Position numbers and translations under genes: made by a program. 64,000 bases of DNA from Scedosporium boydii (taxonomy: Eukaryota > Ascomycota > Sordariomycetes > Microascales > Microascaceae), in assembly GCA_002221725.1 (NCBI GenBank), contig NJFT01000085.1:62001-126000 (forward strand), in the 5' to 3' direction. Shown one piece after another: positions 10,841-21,900 of the stretch. The notes beneath the pieces were generated by a model that made no database searches, was not told the DNA's origin, and saw nothing but the letters and a program-made list of their open reading frames with translations. The stretch's first letter is position 1; each line of letters begins with the position of its first letter.

Positions 10841-13800
10841 TCAAAAGATATTGTCAACATCTTTCGGATCAAATGACTTTCGAAGTAACATTGAGACCTC
10901 GTTGGCGGCCAGAACCGAACTCAACGTGCTTCTCACCACCTCGGAATCACCACCCTCGCCCTCTCCAGTCCTTCCGGCAGATCCTGCCTGGATCTCCATT
11001 TCCATAGCCCCCTCGGCTGGCTGCAGTGTCCTGCCCAAATGATGCTCCAACACGTCTACGTCAAGGGTGTGGGTTGTAACCAAGTCGTAGATGAATACGT
11101 CCTTTGTCTGTCCTGGCCTGTTGCAACGACCAATTGCCTGCTTCATGACCATCTCCCATTGTCGCTGGTCACGACTGAATAGCGGACCAACAAACACGAT
11201 ATGGTTCGCATTTACCAAGTTGCTGCCAGCTGATTCCGGCGCGGACAGGAGCTGAAGAAGGACATCTCCCTTGCCCCTCTGGAACCGGCGAAGCTCCTCA
11301 TCGGGCTGCGCCCGGTCCGTCCTCCCGACATCCAAACCCGCTGAGCGTAGAGCGGCATCAACCGGTCCCATCTGCTCTGGGTAGGGGACGAATACAAGAA
11401 CCTTCTCGTTGGCGTTCTTGGCTGCCTGGACAATGTCAACCGTCTTTTGCAGTTTACCGCCCATACCTAGCGAGTTCATTGGGGTGTCGCCACGGCTCGT
11501 CACGAATGCGTTGCCCGGCACAGCCTCTCCCGTCAAGATGCAGTTACATTCGTCTGCCCGACACACGGGCAACTCGCAGCTACCGTCATCCTTGGGCGGT
11601 CCCACGTCCTTCATCTCCTCCGAGCATCGCTTGCAAAGCAAGTGCCCGCAACTGGTCAGGATAAGAGCATCCTCTGGTGCCTCGATCTGTGTCACCTTGC
11701 AAACGTTGCAGAAAAGACCAGGCGACAGCAGGCTGGCCTTTCTGCGAGATGCTTTGCCCTCCTTGGTGCATTTAGGGCAGATATCGTTTTGGCCTGAGCA
11801 CAAATGGCAAAGGAGATGTTGACAGTCACAATACTCCCGCGCCTCGTCATGGATGACGTCACACCTTCCACACTCGTGGCACCATCGACCATCGAGGACT
11901 TGCTTGGCAAGCAGTGAAATAGAGTTGAGGAACCTATATCGACGGAACGCCTCTTGGATGAGGTTTCGAGCGGCCTCTTCGACGCTCAGAGAGGTTAAGA
12001 TCAAGTCGTCTAGACCCTCTTCAAGTTGCGTGCCCCGCGTCACCTTTTTCCGTCCCACAATGGGGAAGCGAGATGGCACAGCAGACCCGAACTCAAAGTC
12101 CTTGTCACTAGCCTTTCCTCCCTCGAATCGGGAGAGGCTCTTCCGAAGGTGTTCGACATTATCACTTTGAAGTGCCTTTAGTCCGATGTTTCGGTGTTTC
12201 GCCCGCAACACTTGCATCTCCTTTTTTTGCTCCTCGGTCATCGAACGCTCTTGCTCGTTCCCACTTTCATCCAAGCTCTTGGGAGGGTCACGGAACCCGC
12301 ACTGCTTTTCAATCGGATCTTGGTTGTATACAACCACCCTCTCAGCAATTGTTTCATCAACCAGGCCCTTCGCCTTTGTTCGGAGCTCATCCATCGATAG
12401 ATTTTCCAACATCAGGGAGTCTTTTCCAAGAACATGGAAGCAGTCGCGAATGATAAGACATAGCTCATGCTTCGACAAGAACTCTATCCTCCCGAAAGGG
12501 TCCGGATACCAGTCAACAAAGTAGCTAGTTCCAGCGCCGCCGTCCCGAGCCTGCCATGTATCGGTACTCCAGTTTTGCGGATTATCATACACCGAATCAT
12601 TCTCGCGCGACCCCAAGAGGGTCTTCCGAACAATGCTGGCAATCTCTAGACCGCCAAACTCTTTGGCGTCTCGGGAAGAACAATGGCGGACTATCTCCAC
12701 GCGGTAGGTGTCCGCCTGGCCAAACTTCATTGAGCGGGTGGCGGCCGTCGTGGCGGGATGGGAACCGGAACCTCCACCGTTGAGCTGGGCATCGCCTCCC
12801 TCGGCGCCGCCCCCCACAATCTCTTTCGCCGGCTCGGCGAATTGATGTGCGAGCCACATAAATCGGTCGAATTGAGACTTCAGAACTCGTCTCATCTTCA
12901 GATATGACATCTTCGCTTCATTCACAATCAAATGGAGAACATCTGAAACTGTCATGTTGCCAGTATTCCGGCCTTGCAGGAGATCGCATGTCTCGCCAAT
13001 TGGGAGCGCCGAAAATACCAGGAGCGTCTTTACTGATGCGTCGTACCGTTCCTGCTGCGTGAGAGACTGGAAAGCATCCGTCTTCTTGTTGAGGTTTAGA
13101 ATGGCTCGCACAGCGTTGCTGCTATCGCCCGACAAGCTCTGCACGTCCCAACGAGCATCATACAGACACTGTTGCAGTCGGAAGTAGTTCGCCTTCGACG
13201 TGGTTTCGCTCGGAACAAAGACGACCTTGCGAATGACCTTGTAACAGTCGCTCACAACAGCCGAATTCTGCCGCATGTACATCGATACAAACTTCTCTCC
13301 TTGGAGATGCCGCTCATGCGCGAACGCCTCCGACTTCAACTGCCGGAGTGCTCGATACTGCTCAGACGCAGACATGTCCGTGGGCGACGGGCCCTCGGTG
13401 ATGGGTCCCAGGTACAGGGGCAGAGCCGGCTCCTCTCGTGCAACGTGGACGTTGATCATGGACGCCATGTCACAAATCTTCGCCAGACACGACATCGGGG
13501 GCGTACCAGACAGGAGCCACTTGGAGCACGCCACACTCTGGATGATGAACGCCGTAGCCAACACGTCGGAGTACGAAAACTCATCATAGATGATCCTGTC
13601 CCAGCTGTAAAACTCGAAAAGGGTCGCCCCCTCGTGTGCATTCGCTGCCTGTTTTAACACCTTCTCGCGACTCGACTGCGACAGGTCGCGAATGTCGGGC
13701 AGTTTGCTCGCATTGCGGGACTTGCGGGACTGTCCGTTGCTGTCTGTGGAAGCATCCGTCGTCGACGCTGCGCCGCCCTTTCGACGCTTGCTCGGCGGCA

Positions 13801-14119
13801 CGTGGTTCTTGCAGGCATTATTAAGAGTTTCCTGGTTCGCCGCAACTGCTTTCAACGCTTCCTCGGCAACATTGAAATCTTCACCCTCGTTGACATGGCG
13901 TCGGTGGAGATCGCGGAGCTTATCGCAGCCTGGGAAATAAAACTCTTCAAAGTTTCTCTTGGTGTCGGGCCCGGCCATTTTAACCTGGCCAGACGCCGCG
14001 GCGAAGGTGTCTCGCGCTGAAGCCGTAAGTCGCGCGGCGGTATGCGATATCAAGACAATGTCGGCCTCTTCGAGCTCTTCTTGATTGATCTTTTTCGCCC
14101 TCGTTTTGAAGACGACCAC
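10841..14119 (-). CDS. DNMT5: DNMT5, downstream part: SNF2 ATPase with RING finger
   Basis: A continuous 1092-codon frame, in the same frame as the methyltransferase part and separated from it by one TAG. It begins NVVVFKTRAKK, the direct continuation of SNF2 lobe 1. Visible parts in order are the Walker B region YDEFSYSD (DEAH-type box altered to DEFS, near 13580), motif III LLSGTPP (near 13520), a long insertion, and two cysteine clusters (about 11560-11900), the second with RING-like C-x2-C and CGHLLCKRC spacing. Then comes helicase lobe 2 (about 11080-11450) with KVLVFVPYPEQ, LLSAPESAGSNLV and motif VI QAIGRCNRPGQ. In DNMT5 this ATPase is required to couple ATP hydrolysis to maintenance CpG methylation. 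If translated alone it would start at a downstream ATG (near 13978) and lack ATPase motif I. It is either the back half of a readthrough or unbroken protein, or a dead remnant. Confidence 0.85.
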   Translation of the reverse strand: MVVFKTRAKKINQEELEEADIVLISHTAARLTASARDTFAAASGQVKMAGPDTKRNFEEFYFPGCDKLRDLHRRHVNEGEDFNVAEEALKAVAANQETLNNACKNHVPPSKRRKGGAASTTDASTDSNGQSRKSRNASKLPDIRDLSQSSREKVLKQAANAHEGATLFEFYSWDRIIYDEFSYSDVLATAFIIQSVACSKWLLSGTPPMSCLAKICDMASMINVHVAREEPALPLYLGPITEGPSPTDMSASEQYRALRQLKSEAFAHERHLQGEKFVSMYMRQNSAVVSDCYKVIRKVVFVPSETTSKANYFRLQQCLYDARWDVQSLSGDSSNAVRAILNLNKKTDAFQSLTQQERYDASVKTLLVFSALPIGETCDLLQGRNTGNMTVSDVLHLIVNEAKMSYLKMRRVLKSQFDRFMWLAHQFAEPAKEIVGGGAEGGDAQLNGGGSGSHPATTAATRSMKFGQADTYRVEIVRHCSSRDAKEFGGLEIASIVRKTLLGSRENDSVYDNPQNWSTDTWQARDGGAGTSYFVDWYPDPFGRIEFLSKHELCLIIRDCFHVLGKDSLMLENLSMDELRTKAKGLVDETIAERVVVYNQDPIEKQCGFRDPPKSLDESGNEQERSMTEEQKKEMQVLRAKHRNIGLKALQSDNVEHLRKSLSRFEGGKASDKDFEFGSAVPSRFPIVGRKKVTRGTQLEEGLDDLILTSLSVEEAARNLIQEAFRRYRFLNSISLLAKQVLDGRWCHECGRCDVIHDEAREYCDCQHLLCHLCSGQNDICPKCTKEGKASRRKASLLSPGLFCNVCKVTQIEAPEDALILTSCGHLLCKRCSEEMKDVGPPKDDGSCELPVCRADECNCILTGEAVPGNAFVTSRGDTPMNSLGMGGKLQKTVDIVQAAKNANEKVLVFVPYPEQMGPVDAALRSAGLDVGRTDRAQPDEELRRFQRGKGDVLLQLLSAPESAGSNLVNANHIVFVGPLFSRDQRQWEMVMKQAIGRCNRPGQTKDVFIYDLVTTHTLDVDVLEHHLGRTLQPAEGAMEMEIQAGSAGRTGEGEGGDSEVVRSTLSSVLAANEVSMLLRKSFDPKDVDNIF

Positions 14120-14122
14120 ATT

Positions 14123-14125
14123 CTA
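14123..14125 (-). other. in-frame TAG interrupting DNMT5
   Basis: On the minus strand the frame reads Ser-Asp-Gln-Thr, then TAG, then Asn-Val-Val-Val-Phe. Both sides are conserved SNF2 sequence in one frame. The preceding 30 bases contain no GT that could serve as a donor, so the stop cannot be removed by a nearby intron even though TAG would be a legal acceptor. A single C-to-T change (CAG to TAG) would create it. A genuine nonsense mutation, a base-call error and programmed readthrough all remain possible. Confidence 0.85.
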
Positions 14126-17100
14126 CGTCTGGTCGCTCTGCTGAAGGAATCGCCTGATCTCAGACTCCCACTGGCCGATAATGTGATTGGGGACGACGAT
14201 TAACGTCGCTTTGAGATGCACGAGTCTGTCTCCCATCCAGCCGCGTCGCTCTTGGATGGACTGGTCGACAAGACGACGTTGTACATCGATCAAAGCTAGC
14301 GAAATAACCGTCTTTCCGTACCCGACTTGATGAGCCAAAACGCCACCCCTGGACTTATTCGGCGTCCACGCGCGTCCGACCAGGCGGAGACCCACCGACT
14401 GCTCGATGTATTCCTCGACTTCCGTCTCCATGTACGCCTCAGGGGACTCCTCACGTTTAATCATCCAGCCAAGTGCCAATTTCTGATCTGGTCGGAGACT
14501 CAGGTCGTCTGGGAAAGATGGGGGAGGAGGCGGAGGCGCGTTGTTATCGGTGGCGACGACAGGCCGAAGCTTCATCTCGAACGGAGTAAACTTTTTGGGT
14601 GTGTCATGGAAGTTGTGAACGAGTTCAGCAGTGCCTTGACCCTGGCTCAAATCCCTCTGTATGCCCTTCTCCTGAACACCTTCTCGGGGAAGATAACCGG
14701 CAGCGCGGTGGATCAAAGTCGCGAGATCTACTTTGATCTCAACCTCGAGGCTCGAGGCCTCGGAAGCACTGACCGAAATGGATACGGGAGTTGGTCGGTC
14801 GTTGATGCGGTTCTCAAATTTCTCACACTGTTCTGCATCTGAAATAATCTCAACGACCTTGTCGTCCATGTTCCTGATTCGGTGGACAGCCGGCATGACT
14901 GGAACACAATCACCACAGAGATTCGTGCCGAGGGGAACCGAATCCGTATGACCGACCCCCTGAGGAAGACAAATTAGAGCAAATCTAATCGATCGAAGCA
15001 AAGCATCTCTATCGCGCTGTCGAACGGGGTAAAGATTCGAAGATTCGACGAACAGGCCGGAATTATCCCGCCACAAGGCAGCATAGAATGAATTCGGGAA
15101 CGGGAAGTCTACCAGAGGGATCTTGAGATGCGCCCATGTCTCCGCTTGATTGCACTTACGATCGCGAACGCATTGCCACATGCCGTCGCCGACGTGGACC
15201 TCGGGGACTTTCGCGATCGAGTTGATTGACTTTGGCAAGGCTCTTGCCGGATCCTTGGATGCAGCAACACCAGCCCAGTATCCTGGGTACTCGCACCTCA
15301 GGCCAATATGCGGACGATTTTCTCCGGCCACTTGCGGAATGGTGACTGGATTAATCATACGCGCCCATTTCGACCGACAAGGACGATACTCTTTATCGAA
15401 ATAGAGAAGGACGTCGCGGTTCTCAAAGTCATGCAGCATTCGATTCGTCTTCGCAATGACCCATCGATCGTTGAAGCCGTGGCATTCCTTGTCGGGATCA
15501 AGGAAGTGGTAGAGCTCGCTCCTCTCCTGAATGTACAGAAGAGAATGTGACGTCCCGCAGTGCTCGGTGAGCGTGTAGGCGTCACCGAGAAGCTGGGCCA
15601 CATCGTCGAAAGCCTGGCCTTGCGAAACCACGTTGCCCGCGTGATCAACCATCGACACGAGATCGTATTTAATGCCTTCAAGGCGCTCAATACCCGGATG
15701 AACATTGACGATAACCGTGTGTTTGTCGTCGACCCAGAGACGCCAATCCTCCTCACGGGGAATGACCATCGAATCGGGGTTCTTGAGGACAGCCCTCATT
15801 ACGTTGTACTCGGGATCCTGCAGGTACCCGAGTTTCTTGGAGATGATGCAACCTTCAACATCCAGATACACATTCCACATAAGCGAATCCTCGCCGATCG
15901 AGATGTCGACGTGAGAGCGAGCAGAATGGTATCGAGCGGTCAAAACTTGCCCGACGTGGAATTCCTTGAAGTAATATGTCGTGTTCGCACAGCAGACATC
16001 GAAGGCTTCTTTGGCGCGATCGGAGAGATACACGTCGCCGAAATCCTCGAGTGCAGGAACTCGAATACCGACTTCGTCCCGCGCCGTCAAGGTGAAAATA
16101 GGCGGGAGGGATTCCGTGACAAGCGACATCGCCTCCGCCTCGCTGTACAATTTAAAATCGATCGGATAGTCCACAAAGTTGTGCAAGGGATTTCCCAAGC
16201 ACTTGCTGCATCGGAACTGTTTGCAGTCTTGACAGAATTTGAGGCCACGCGCGCGGTTCCGAATGCTCAAACCGTCACAGGGACAATAAGAACGACATAC
16301 CCTGTGGAACAGAAACAAACGGCTCAATTTGGTGTTTTTCAGGGCAGACGAATCCCATTTCTCGCACATCTCTTGAGTAACGTTCTTGATCACTGCACTA
16401 GGTCGCTCGGTGCCCTCTTCGTCCACGGCGCCCTCTTCGTCCACGGTGTTCTCTTCGTCCACGGTGTTCTCTTCGTCCACGGTGTTCTCTTCGTCCACGG
16501 TGCCCTCTTCGTTCGCGGTGGGCTTTTTGCGCGGGGTGCCCTCTTTGCGCAGGATTTCCGAGAAGCTGTTCGCCTTCTCCTGGAGACCATAATCCGTACC
16601 GATGCAAGCGTTGTGCTCTGCGAGAAGTAACGCGAGTATAACACAGCCAACGACAGATGTCGTCATGGCATTTCCTGCGAGGTCACGCCAGTCCTTATCG
16701 CACTCGGTTGACGGCACAAGTTTGTCTGACTCGATGCCCTGAAGGCGGAGTGCCTCCAATCCGACGAGCAACCGACCCTGGCTAGTGATGAAAGGCAGGC
16801 CGTTGGGAGTGAGACAGGGAGACTGTCCTACTTGACCAGGGCTGCGATCGACGTTCTGCGACAAGTCGATAACATGATTCTTGAAACGGAAATCAAAATT
16901 ATGAGCGGTGTCGATCATCATTCGCAGTTGGACAATGTCCAAAAGGTCACAAACCCTCGGTCCCTGGCGTTGAATCAGGGTTTTGTGGGACAAATCGTAC
17001 GGCTTGCATGCGCCACGCGCATCGAGGCGTGTATACTGGTGGACATCACGAAGCAGACCATATTGCTTGCGGGCGTGATTGTGTCTCATCTGGCACATGG

Positions 17101-18958
17101 TTGCCTTAACGGTCGGCTCTCTGCTAGCTCCTCGTTCGATCGGGATGAGGCTCTCGCGAACGGTCCGATCGCCATATCGAAGAAGAAGATTGCGCAGCGG
17201 GATTCGAGCAGTCGATTCAGCTTGGCCGATGAGGGTCTCCCAGGTTTCGCAGATTTTCGACGCACGTTCTTGGCCGTAATGGCGTTTGTCCACGGCGACG
17301 AGATAGCCTCTTTGGCGTGTATGCGGCACGCCATAGTTCGCGGAATCGAGCTTGACGTGCATCGCCGAATAACCAATCATGGGAAACCACACATTGACAA
17401 TGTCATGCCAAGGGGATTGATTAACATTCTCCATGACGGCCAGCTTGGGCCGGGCCTTGTTCACGTACGCCAGCGATGCAAGGAAAGTCGTGGCGGATTC
17501 GCCAGTCGCATCCTTGGCCTCCTTCATAAATGCCTCGAAATCGACTTCATCGCCGTCGAGCCTGGCGTTGTATCGGGCCGTCAAATCGCCTAGGTCCTTG
17601 TTCTTCTTGGAATTGAGAGAAGAAAAGTCCACACAGGACGATCCGACGACGAGGACATCTACCTTGGTGGGTACGTCGGCCGGGAAACCGGCGGCAGTGG
17701 TGGCCTTGTCATTTGCGGCGAACTCGACGACGTCGCGGAAGATGTGACCCTCGGGCTTGATGTTTCGTCGGATGAAGGCTTGCTTGACGGGTTCGATCTC
17801 GACGCTGAAGAGGTGCTCGTGCGAAAGGGACTTGTCGTGGCCTAGAGCGTAACCAGCCTCTTGGAAGAGCTTGAGGGCGATGATGGGAGCGTCGGTGCCG
17901 GAGCACAGGGTGCCAATGGTGAAGTGACGGCCGCCGGTCGCGATGATGTCCTTGAATCCGAGATCTAGCAATCCCTTGAAAAGAAAAACGAACAGCTCGG
18001 GGATGGAAGTGGCGATTTTCAGGTGTTTGTCTTCGGATTCTTTGGGCTCTTGCTCGTCCGCTTCCTCTTCTTCGTCACCGTCGGCGCCGTCGTCGGAGTC
18101 CTTTGCCTTTTTGGACTTTCCTCGCTTGGTCGCCGCCTTGGAAGTCTTCGCCCTCTTGGCCGGCGGCTTTCCGGTTGTTGTTGTTGCCTTTGCAGGCCTC
18201 TTGGCCGTCGACCTCGCAGGCCTCTTCGCCGCCGTTGTCTTCGCAGGCTTCTTGGCCGCGGTCGTCGTCTTCCTCTGCCTCTTCTTCGTGGAGGGTTGAG
18301 CACCAGCATCAGTACCGGCAGCAGCGTTGGCCGCAGGTTGGGGATCGGGCGGGTCGATATCCATCGCGTCGCCGTCACCGAGAACCTGGGAAACGGTGGT
18401 TGTGTTGTCGACCACAGCGGCAGCGGGTGGTTGCTGCGTGTTGGCGCGCCGGACATTCTGAAGAGGGGGGAGGGGGGAGGGGAGGATGAGGGGCGCCGAA
18501 GAAGAAGCAGAACGGACATTGACGGAAGGGGTTGAGGGGACGGCGTGAGTATTGGAGGTGGTAGGGGTGGGAATGGCCGGAGCAGGCTCGTGGACTACGG
18601 GATTGACCCAAAAGCCCCCGGAGTTAGAAGGATATTCACCTGGAACGACAGTATTGGCGCTGAAGGGCTGGTCATTGCTGGGAGGGATACCGGTGGCTAC
18701 ACCGTGACCCACTGCAGAACGCTGCCAATCAGTCAATCTGGGAGTGCCACTGTTGATCGCGCTCGGCATTGCACTCCGAGTGGGATGCTGGGGGTGGGCG
18801 TGGTTTCGATGTGGTTGAGAAGGGACCTGAGGCCGTTCGTCGTAAAGTCCGACGTCGGGAAGAGGATTCCAGTTCTTGCGGTTGGAAATTCCCGAAGGAG
18901 CACTACGCCCAGAACCGTTCTGGCCAGTGTCCTCGAAAGGCGAGCCTTGGCCCGACAT
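14123..18958 (-). CDS. DNMT5: DNMT5, upstream part: cytosine-C5 DNA methyltransferase plus SNF2 lobe 1
   Basis: A 1611-codon frame starting at ATG 18958, apparently intronless. Residues 1-340 are low-complexity: Pro/Ser/Asn-rich, then a histone-H1-like Lys/Ala/Thr tract (about 220-285) and an acidic patch. I see no chromodomain there. The methyltransferase follows: motif I GTLCSGTDAP (about 348), motif IV GSSCVDFSSLN (about 438; SSC in place of the usual PCQ, as in the DNMT5 class), motif VI VMENVNQ (about 508), motif VIII TRQRGYL (about 548) and motif X LAGNAMTTSVVG (about 760). A six-residue repeat insertion and a Cys-rich zinc cluster (about 895-930) come next. BAH-like or linker sequence leads to SNF2 lobe 1 with ALGWMIKRE (about 1495), motif I VGYGKT (about 1545) and motif Ia LIVVPNHIIGQW (about 1595). 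The family maintains CpG methylation on hemimethylated DNA, ATP-dependently. All methyltransferase motifs are intact; the frame stops between SNF2 motifs Ia and II. Confidence 0.93.
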   Translation of the reverse strand: MSGQGSPFEDTGQNGSGRSAPSGISNRKNWNPLPDVGLYDERPQVPSQPHRNHAHPQHPTRSAMPSAINSGTPRLTDWQRSAVGHGVATGIPPSNDQPFSANTVVPGEYPSNSGGFWVNPVVHEPAPAIPTPTTSNTHAVPSTPSVNVRSASSSAPLILPSPLPPLQNVRRANTQQPPAAAVVDNTTTVSQVLGDGDAMDIDPPDPQPAANAAAGTDAGAQPSTKKRQRKTTTAAKKPAKTTAAKRPARSTAKRPAKATTTTGKPPAKRAKTSKAATKRGKSKKAKDSDDGADGDEEEEADEQEPKESEDKHLKIATSIPELFVFLFKGLLDLGFKDIIATGGRHFTIGTLCSGTDAPIIALKLFQEAGYALGHDKSLSHEHLFSVEIEPVKQAFIRRNIKPEGHIFRDVVEFAANDKATTAAGFPADVPTKVDVLVVGSSCVDFSSLNSKKNKDLGDLTARYNARLDGDEVDFEAFMKEAKDATGESATTFLASLAYVNKARPKLAVMENVNQSPWHDIVNVWFPMIGYSAMHVKLDSANYGVPHTRQRGYLVAVDKRHYGQERASKICETWETLIGQAESTARIPLRNLLLRYGDRTVRESLIPIERGASREPTVKATMCQMRHNHARKQYGLLRDVHQYTRLDARGACKPYDLSHKTLIQRQGPRVCDLLDIVQLRMMIDTAHNFDFRFKNHVIDLSQNVDRSPGQVGQSPCLTPNGLPFITSQGRLLVGLEALRLQGIESDKLVPSTECDKDWRDLAGNAMTTSVVGCVILALLLAEHNACIGTDYGLQEKANSFSEILRKEGTPRKKPTANEEGTVDEENTVDEENTVDEENTVDEEGAVDEEGTERPSAVIKNVTQEMCEKWDSSALKNTKLSRLFLFHRVCRSYCPCDGLSIRNRARGLKFCQDCKQFRCSKCLGNPLHNFVDYPIDFKLYSEAEAMSLVTESLPPIFTLTARDEVGIRVPALEDFGDVYLSDRAKEAFDVCCANTTYYFKEFHVGQVLTARYHSARSHVDISIGEDSLMWNVYLDVEGCIISKKLGYLQDPEYNVMRAVLKNPDSMVIPREEDWRLWVDDKHTVIVNVHPGIERLEGIKYDLVSMVDHAGNVVSQGQAFDDVAQLLGDAYTLTEHCGTSHSLLYIQERSELYHFLDPDKECHGFNDRWVIAKTNRMLHDFENRDVLLYFDKEYRPCRSKWARMINPVTIPQVAGENRPHIGLRCEYPGYWAGVAASKDPARALPKSINSIAKVPEVHVGDGMWQCVRDRKCNQAETWAHLKIPLVDFPFPNSFYAALWRDNSGLFVESSNLYPVRQRDRDALLRSIRFALICLPQGVGHTDSVPLGTNLCGDCVPVMPAVHRIRNMDDKVVEIISDAEQCEKFENRINDRPTPVSISVSASEASSLEVEIKVDLATLIHRAAGYLPREGVQEKGIQRDLSQGQGTAELVHNFHDTPKKFTPFEMKLRPVVATDNNAPPPPPPSFPDDLSLRPDQKLALGWMIKREESPEAYMETEVEEYIEQSVGLRLVGRAWTPNKSRGGVLAHQVGYGKTVISLALIDVQRRLVDQSIQERRGWMGDRLVHLKATLIVVPNHIIGQWESEIRRFLQQSDQT
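16410..16520 (-). repeat. in-frame 18-bp tandem repeat inside DNMT5
   Basis: About five to six copies of an 18-nt unit encode (G/N)(T/A)VDEE in the DNMT5 protein, C-terminal to the methyltransferase core (about residues 815-850). The unit length keeps the frame. The middle copies are nearly identical, which suggests recent expansion by slippage and probable copy-number variation between strains. It likely forms a flexible acidic linker. Confidence 0.9.
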
Positions 18959-21900
18959 CTTGAGAAGAGATTCCTAACGAGTCGGGGGTTGGCTTGGGAT
19001 GAGCCCAAAGGGCGAAAATGGCAGAAATGCTGTTCTTTTTCCTGTCGATTCTTCTTTTTCGTTAGTACTACTAACCACAAAAGAAAGTTGAACCTGTCTG
19101 GGGGTAGGGGTCTCAAATGAGGGCCCGATGCCACATCCAAGCGACTTGCGTCCAGGAACGTATGCTCGACGAAGCGGAACGGCTGCCCGGCAGGGAGGAA
19201 ACGATGCAACGACGAAAGAAAGAATGAAACAACAATACCATACCTGAGACAGGGTAAACTGAGTTTGCTGGTGCGAACCAGAAGGTGTTGGATGATGAAG
19301 TTCGAAGAAGTACGATGAAGGGTGATGAAGGCGGAATGAAGTTGATTTGATTTGGAAGAAAAGAGGAAGAAGTTTTCGTGAAGCGGTGGTGGCCTCGAGG
19401 GAAATTTATGTGTTTCCAGAAGTGACGCGTCAGGGTTATTGATTCTACGGCACGCGCAAGAAACAATCACGTTACTGGAGCTGAGACTTCCCTTTACGAA
19501 AAATCTAAAGGGTTTTCTATTCTTATTATTGGAGGGAACTCGTGCTGAAATGCCGAGTCATTCGAGGAGGGAGGAGCGGACTGGAGGATCCTATGGGCTT
19601 TGTTGGGCTCCTTCCCGTCAGGGGACATCATGAGGAATTGTGGAGGGGGAACTCTGAGCGCAGAGGGGGGGTGAAAGATGGGGATGGTGTCTTTCTCATC
19701 TGTGAGGCGCAAGAGGGGGTTCAGTTGGAGACGAAGATGCAAGAGCTGGACTGTGGTCGTGGTTGTGGTCACTTTGGACTTACAGCTTATCGGGCCAGGT
19801 GAAGGCTTGCTGTCTTGTCTGAAATGGCAGCAGTAGGAATTCACCAAAATCCAGCTAAAAAGGGGCTACAGTTGTGCTTTCTCAGATATTATCCAGATTG
19901 TCCTTCACTTGAGAAGCCAGCTTTTGCTTTGGAGAGAGGTGGAAAGGAGCCAGCAAGAGGGAACAGGACCTGTCCTTGTCTGGAGGACTTGGATGGCTGT
20001 GAACTCTGATAGCGGCTTTTAAGAATATTATTATTACAGCTGAGTTGACTCTTTATGACCTCTGCTTCTGCTTTATTATTACTAAATTGACATCCTTTTT
20101 TGTTCATATTTTCTTGTCTTTGCTTGTTGTGCTCTTTCTCTTTTGTTGGAAGGCTTCGAGTTGGGAATGGGCGGGAGACTTATTGTGGGCTTATAGCTTC
20201 TGGAGGGTACTAACCATGGCTGAGACAGTTGTAGGTAACTTTGACTTGACATGTCCTTTAGCAGAATCGGGCACAGAAGTTTGTTGGAGTCTGTTTTGGC
20301 AGGATATAGCCACGGACAAGATAGGACTGGAGCTGCTGCTTCACTTTGGGGGGAGAGGGAGGTTACGCTACATCAAATGGGTCGTTTGCGATATCACAAT
20401 ACTCGTATCACGAGTCAAATTCACCACGTTGTATTTAACATAGAGACTAGGTCCCTTAAAGTGGCAGAGAAGAGTCGTTTATTATCGAGAATTCTTGTAG
20501 TCTGGATTACCTAGTACAATTTGTCCATGATGGACAACCATATATCAATCCTAAATGCTCATTGCTTCCACCGTGGCGAAATGATTGTCTCCAACGATTA
20601 TCTCCGCTATGGTATTGTGTCCATGGGCGATGGGACGACTTCGCTTATAGGAAGGACGAGTCAAATAGATGTAGTCTTTGGGCCTTCGAATCTAAGCTAT
20701 ATTATTTCCTGGAGTTGTAATGCCGGGGAAATGTTTAGAGTCACTCGGGAGCCTGGTATCTACTTCTCTGCCGCCTCCCAGCCTTTCAACATATCAGCCT
20801 GTGCCCTCCCTCGAACTTCGTAGGGGGTCGTAGACACCGTAATAAGAAGCAACTATCTTCTGAATGTCCCTCAAAGGCTTCGCGCAGAGCTTTCTCAGTA
20901 CCAGGGCGGCCTAGGAAGACGAGACGGTGTCGAATTTCGCGAGGGTTATTGGCGTGGACCTAAGGAGCGAAGAGGAGTTAGCGCTGGGGGTAGAAGACAA
21001 AAGGACGGCGGAAAACATACAAGGGGAGAGTTGTACCGCTAAAGACTCCCCTCTTCATCGATAAAATGGGCATAGTAGCCGGATGTAGTTCGGATTGAAC
21101 TCTCCCAGGCAACGGCCATGATAGAGCTCAGTTGTGGTCGTTCACAGACATTACTTACCGCCTCCCACCCTCTTAACCATTTCTTCGAAGCACCTTTAGC
21201 CTCTGCTCGTGATCTATTGTTGCCTAGGTCCATTTTCCAACGGCTCCGTTTCAACTCCGTCTCTATCCACAGGCTCGACTGGCGTTTTCGAGTGGTAGCG
21301 GCCTTGCCAACCGCTTAGGCTCGGGATATATTTGCGGCGATCTTTTTCGTTGGGGGATGGACTCGAAGCTCTCGGAATACTTTTGTTTCTCGGTTGTAGG
21401 CTTGAATGCTCCGGTCTGTTTCTAGTCGGTGAGCTTATCATCTTGTCGTCGCCGTCGTCGTCGTCGTTGTGTTGATGTCCATCGTGCCGCAGCGGCCCAT
21501 CGTTTCAGGGCCTTAGGATTCACTCTTGTATTTTATGGAAATAAATGGAAACAAGGTAGAACCTCCAGGAGTGGTACTTGCCTGGAACGAGGAAACGCGT
21601 CAGGCCTGACCGTAGGGAATACCAAAAAATACGGCCGATTATTTTTCATTGTCCTCCCTCGTTTTCGTTTCTCTGGCGTATTTGCCTGTGATGCGGGGGT
21701 GGGGTAGTTCCTTCCCCCCTCATCCTCGGGTTCCTGGGAGATGGACGCTGCTCCTCCTCCTCCGAAGTAAGAGAGTGGCTGCTGCCAGTCCATGAGCCGT
21801 GGTGAGATGATCCTCGACATCCGGCTTCATGGTCCAGACGCTGATGGTGGAGTGTTCAAAGATCCGCTGCCTTCTTTGCTTCGCGATTCCCGCCCTTTGC

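Follow-up and report, generated by a model that had tools for sequence, protein, structure and literature searches.

The window, a 64,000-nucleotide stretch of a Scedosporium boydii contig, carries on its reverse strand a gene for a DNMT5-type DNA methyltransferase whose reading frame is divided by one stop codon. The front frame (14123..18973, stop to stop) comprises 1616 codons plus the TAG, or 1611 codons from the first methionine, and the back frame (10841..14122, stop to stop) comprises 1093 codons plus a stop. The two lie in identical phase with the TAG at 14123-14125 as their sole separator, and apart from it the approximately 8.1 kb of coding sequence contain no further stop or frame break. 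A sequence-only reading had given the TAG these coordinates and had taken the two long frames for two parts of a single DNMT5 protein; the former is borne out by the frames, and the latter by the frames, Pfam and a match to PDB entry 7r76. The features of the locus are:

14126..18958, reverse strand: DNMT5 front frame from its first methionine, with the N-terminal tail, the methyltransferase, the middle region and the first part of SNF2 lobe 1 (frames, Pfam, PDB match)
16598..17944, reverse strand: C5 cytosine methyltransferase domain, covering residues 344-792 in the numbering of the stop-to-stop frame (Pfam, PDB match)
14138..14485, reverse strand: pre-stop part of SNF2 ATPase lobe 1, from the GYGKT of motif I to motif Ia (Pfam, alignment)
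14123..14125, reverse strand: in-frame TAG, with the proposed edited A at 14124 (frames, alignment)
14112..14136, reverse strand: predicted RNA hairpin with a 7-bp stem and the UAG in its loop (folding; chance frequency computed)
10844..14122, reverse strand: DNMT5 back frame, with the rest of SNF2 lobe 1, a RING-like region and lobe 2 (frames, Pfam, PDB match, conservation)
11111..11455, reverse strand: Helicase_C domain, SNF2 lobe 2 (Pfam)
10841..10843, reverse strand: stop codon closing the whole DNMT5 gene (frames)

Pfam recognises a DNA_methylase domain and the first part of an SNF2 domain in the front half. In the back half, Helicase_C scores 24 bits, barely above its cut-off of 23.5, and a candidate RING between the ATPase lobes (zf-RING_5) scores 24.5 bits, below its cut-off of 27.9. 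Both halves match PDB entry 7r76 (front, 1.9e-88; back, 4.7e-31), which was deposited under the name Rad8 and which we take to be Cryptococcus DNMT5. The methyltransferase, SNF2 lobes and C-terminal helicase follow one another in matching order in the two proteins, but the S. boydii frame is interrupted by the UAG in lobe 1. The order seen here, with the C5 methyltransferase domain preceding the SNF2 ATPase in a shared phase and linked to it only across the TAG, is the architecture of DNMT5, an enzyme known for maintaining CpG methylation through very long periods, and the predicted function of this protein is ATP-dependent maintenance CpG methylation. The nearest named relative of the back half is from Thermomyces stellatus (Microascales, Sordariomycetes), at 36% identity. 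A second DNMT5 copy was considered and rejected, as a search of the genome (42.9 Mb, 442 contigs) found none. A short tandem repeat of TVDEEN-like units is present on the reverse strand between the methyltransferase and the middle region, at about 16390-16540 of the window.

The TAG lies between the helix of motif Ia (QWESEIRRFL) and the strand NVVVF, upstream of motif II (DEFS), and the alignment thereby confirms the earlier placement of the stop between motifs Ia and II of SNF2 lobe 1. Of 108 protein matches, 96 span the site with both flanks of the TAG aligned, and almost all of these have a short loop there. Columns that hold the same residue in at least 90% of 70 full-length relatives are largely retained in DNMT5 (127/140 before the TAG and 43/44 after it), in agreement with the earlier statement that all other motifs look intact. 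The window together with positions 1-190000 of contig C1 (254 kb) contains 118 same-phase pairs of frames of at least 80 codons, and the DNMT5 pair has the highest coding potential on either side of the stop. Six of the other 117 pairs were inspected by eye; three have splice signals, and three look antisense or non-coding.

In the fungal literature surveyed (PMC11156358, PMC4817773, PMC11087585, PMC9600606, PMC12167651), A-to-I mRNA editing is said to be common in Sordariomycetes, where the genes known to have premature stops corrected by it include PUK1/STK-21, FgRID, AMD1 and FgAMA1. In this literature, editing sites favour a U at -1 together with an A or a G at both +1 and +3, and a position in a hairpin loop. 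The activator Ame1 is a DUF726 protein; its MV pair, approximately 30 residues before the catalytic Ser, is indispensable for editing and originated in Sordariomycetes. DNMT5 is not named as an editing target in the papers surveyed for this point, mostly as titles and the beginnings of abstracts, and our search found no report of A-to-I editing in Microascales. The S. boydii genome contains three DUF726 genes (five matches at three places); the one on contig C118 has the MV pair, and the other two have LN and LD there (read by eye, with the spacing one residue off). The C118 gene is predicted to encode an Ame1-like editing activator.

Three DNA methylase genes are encoded in the genome. The DIM-2-like gene, which has BAH stretches, contains no stop in the stretch examined. 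The RID-like gene consists of 486 codons ending in RWKVIALAN, a TAG, and then 252 codons starting with GLPALRKRLIMIGAGPGE, all in one phase:

L012 1579-1581 (G000:C52), reverse strand: in-frame TAG of the RID-like gene (same-phase frames)

Among the 120 of 370 matches listed, 119 are relatives other than record P0109, and the 118 of these that could be aligned have Trp (61), Tyr (49), Phe (7) or Leu (1) at the TAG column, with Trp in all nine of the nearest. The nearest named relative among the matches listed is from Cephalotrichum gorgonifer (Microascales, Sordariomycetes; 61% identity). P0109, a separate JGI record, is 97.1% identical to the RID-like protein over 480 residues and ends exactly at the TAG codon, although its stop triplet is not visible and a contig end is possible. 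According to published work, the RID gene of Fusarium graminearum has a UAG that is edited to UGG in perithecia. The editing site there (UA644G) is apparently another codon than the TAG of S. boydii, which counts against editing here, and the RID interruption therefore seems to have arisen twice.

Stops are present in 24 of 141 kinase matches in the genome. Inspection covered 12 of these 24 (C275 and C75 are among the remainder) and yielded four clean splits:

G000:C18:87141-87143 (L044 741-743), forward strand: TAG-TGG in subdomain IX of an NDR/CBK1-type kinase (sequence; strong predicted hairpin)
L041 1270-1272 (G000:C205), reverse strand: TAG of an ankyrin-repeat kinase (sequence)
G000:C88:33702-33704 (L047), reverse strand: TAA of a kinase (sequence)
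L045 (G000:C124:18101-19300): Aurora-like kinase copy with a TGA and a frame change (sequence)

The other eight (C22, C1, C48, C339, C167, C120, C227 and C10) were rejected as clean splits, since by eye they look like introns or splice ends. The C18 kinase reads GYDGRCD-TAG-TGG-SIGIILYE, and its closest PDB match is yeast CBK1. PUK1/STK-21 is described as edited in kinase subdomain IX, where the sequence is UAGUAG in F. graminearum, UAGUGG in N. crassa and UGGUAG in F. verticillioides. From this motif and the kinase family, we infer that the C18 kinase is the PUK1/STK-21 orthologue; that the orthology is drawn from motif and family is a point against the editing reading. So is the C205 ankyrin-repeat kinase, in which a clean in-frame TAG between DVILEDS and DGIFIVMEYL lies outside any hairpin. 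The C88 copy has a clean in-frame TAA, and its paralogues on C31 (77%) and C56 (73%) are free of stops where they match; the C124 copy has a TGA at the usual Trp, and its C43 paralogue (81% identical) is likewise free of stops over the matching part. Plain nonsense lesions therefore occur in this genome, which lowers confidence in editing and raises that in a nonsense mutation.

The DNMT5 UAG has U at -1, G at +1 and A at +3, which matches the published preference, the U and the G being part of any UAG. The probability that its A lies in a hairpin loop is 0.84 to 1.00 with flanks of 15 to 50 nt, and 0.97 at ±30 nt. The corresponding values are 0.89 to 1.00 up to ±25 and 0.19 at ±30 for RID, and 1.00 up to ±30 for the C18 kinase. 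At ±20 nt, a setting chosen after several had been looked at, all three sites are in hairpin loops with a minimum free energy (MFE) of -10 or lower. Of 302 out-of-frame UAGs in long frames, 21% reach a loop probability of at least 0.95 at this setting, and 34 do so with an MFE of at most -10. At the published ±30, 118 of 301 such UAGs are in a hairpin loop and 45 of 301 are in one as stable as that of DNMT5. Hairpins are thus common among background UAGs. The MFE fold of the DNMT5 site at ±40 places the A in a stem, and the 81-nt stretch is no more stable than its shuffles (z = -0.51). The modelled hairpins support editing but do not prove it. At the DNMT5 TAG column, where the loop aligns loosely, the 96 relatives most often have Tyr (31), Phe (19), Pro (13) or Leu (8), and Trp in only six, which may count against editing to a Trp codon.

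On balance, the DNMT5 TAG is probably a genuine genomic stop that is corrected by A-to-I mRNA editing in the sexual stage, so that UAG is read as UGG (Trp). In favour of this stand the clean split, the lack of space for an intron, the well-kept back half, the parallels in RID and the C18 kinase, and the C118 gene with its MV pair. The Tad2-Tad3 tRNA deaminase, with its activator Ame1, would deaminate the A of the UAG, and translation of the edited transcript would give one full-length DNMT5. In hyphae, the transcript would give a 1611-residue methyltransferase cut inside its ATPase and probably inactive, with the DIM-2-like enzyme presumably uninterrupted. Full-length DNMT5 would then probably be made only in fruiting bodies, where the stop would be erased in mRNA during sexual reproduction. 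The editing of this UAG, its timing and the capability of each form of the protein are inferred from the genome sequence. In common with PUK1/STK-21, FgRID, AMD1 and FgAMA1, DNMT5 has a lone in-frame UAG in an intact coding sequence, a hairpin loop, U at -1 and an Ame1-like activator in the genome, but unlike them its editing is a prediction. If edited, DNMT5 would join the targets of a mechanism that is already known, as a new one.

A recent nonsense mutation, in which the strain has lost DNMT5 function and the back half is too young to have decayed, is unlikely. It would account for one stop amid otherwise intact motifs, no close relative with a DNMT5 that could show the age of the stop was found, and little-decayed interrupted kinase copies (C88 and C124) do exist. 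However, these copies have spare, uninterrupted paralogues whereas DNMT5 has none, and RID carries the same type of lesion in common with a 97%-identical record. RIP was rejected as the cause of the stop, as DNMT5 is single copy and its TA/AT ratio is 0.42, whereas a decayed SNF2 gene on C20 reaches 0.97. The C20 gene (L039 3000-7500) has many stops in every frame and a raised TA/AT ratio, and has probably decayed by RIP. In Zymoseptoria tritici, dim2 is reported to have been lost through gene amplification and RIP (PMC8016269). A fungal DNA methyltransferase gene is interrupted in the genome in both species, but DNMT5 of S. boydii is single copy and has no RIP signature.

A sequencing or assembly error at 14123-14125 is considerably less probable still. 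The assembly is fragmented (442 contigs), but the rest of the DNMT5 coding sequence has no other break, the RID stop recurs in the separate record P0109, and the kinase stop falls exactly at a known editing motif; the recurrence in P0109 led us to reject general sequencing error as the main reading. The sequence-only reading had suggested that the lesion is very recent or that the sequence is wrong at this point, with a possible loss of maintenance methylation. None of these gains support as the leading explanation beside the lone in-frame UAGs of RID and of the kinase at the PUK1/STK-21 motif and the encoded Ame1-like activator, and the earlier naming of RNA editing as something to check was right.

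It is highly improbable that the stop is read through, or that the two frames yield two proteins, without editing, as had also been suggested. Both halves are intact, but the context, UAG AAU, differs from the leaky contexts UGA CUA and UAG CAA UUA, and neither half would be a whole enzyme because the split lies inside one ATPase lobe.

The possibility that the TAG closes an intron, as one does in the C22 kinase, can be dismissed, because conserved residues flank it at a distance of a few codons and splicing would take away either motif Ia or the strand that follows; this is a stronger argument than the lack of a donor within 30 bases on which splicing had been discounted, correctly, before. 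Eight of eight back-half relatives (P0001-P0008), found in a search whose length limits favoured split proteins, have their starts downstream of the stop position, in six cases by 8 to 18 codons, and P0006, a T. stellatus gene model, is among the eight. An intron in those species would explain these starts, and a shared stop would explain them equally well. One of the eight, P0007, is a DNMT5 fragment recorded as Candidatus Bathyarchaeota and is probably fungal contamination of an archaeal bin.

A wider proposal, possible but doubtful, extends mRNA editing of DNMT5 to the methyltransferases as a set. RID and DNMT5, two of the three enzymes, would be kept silent in hyphae, and a single editing system would activate both of them in the sexual stage, so that the DIM-2-like enzyme is the only one at work during vegetative growth. 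The interruption of DNMT5 would, on this proposal, be old and shared across Microascales. If editing does gate DNMT5, maintenance methylation would depend on the sexual cycle, like RIP by RID, and it would be a mistake to annotate the gene as split or broken. The role of DNMT5 in the sexual versus the vegetative stage becomes testable from one base in the RNA of the two stages.
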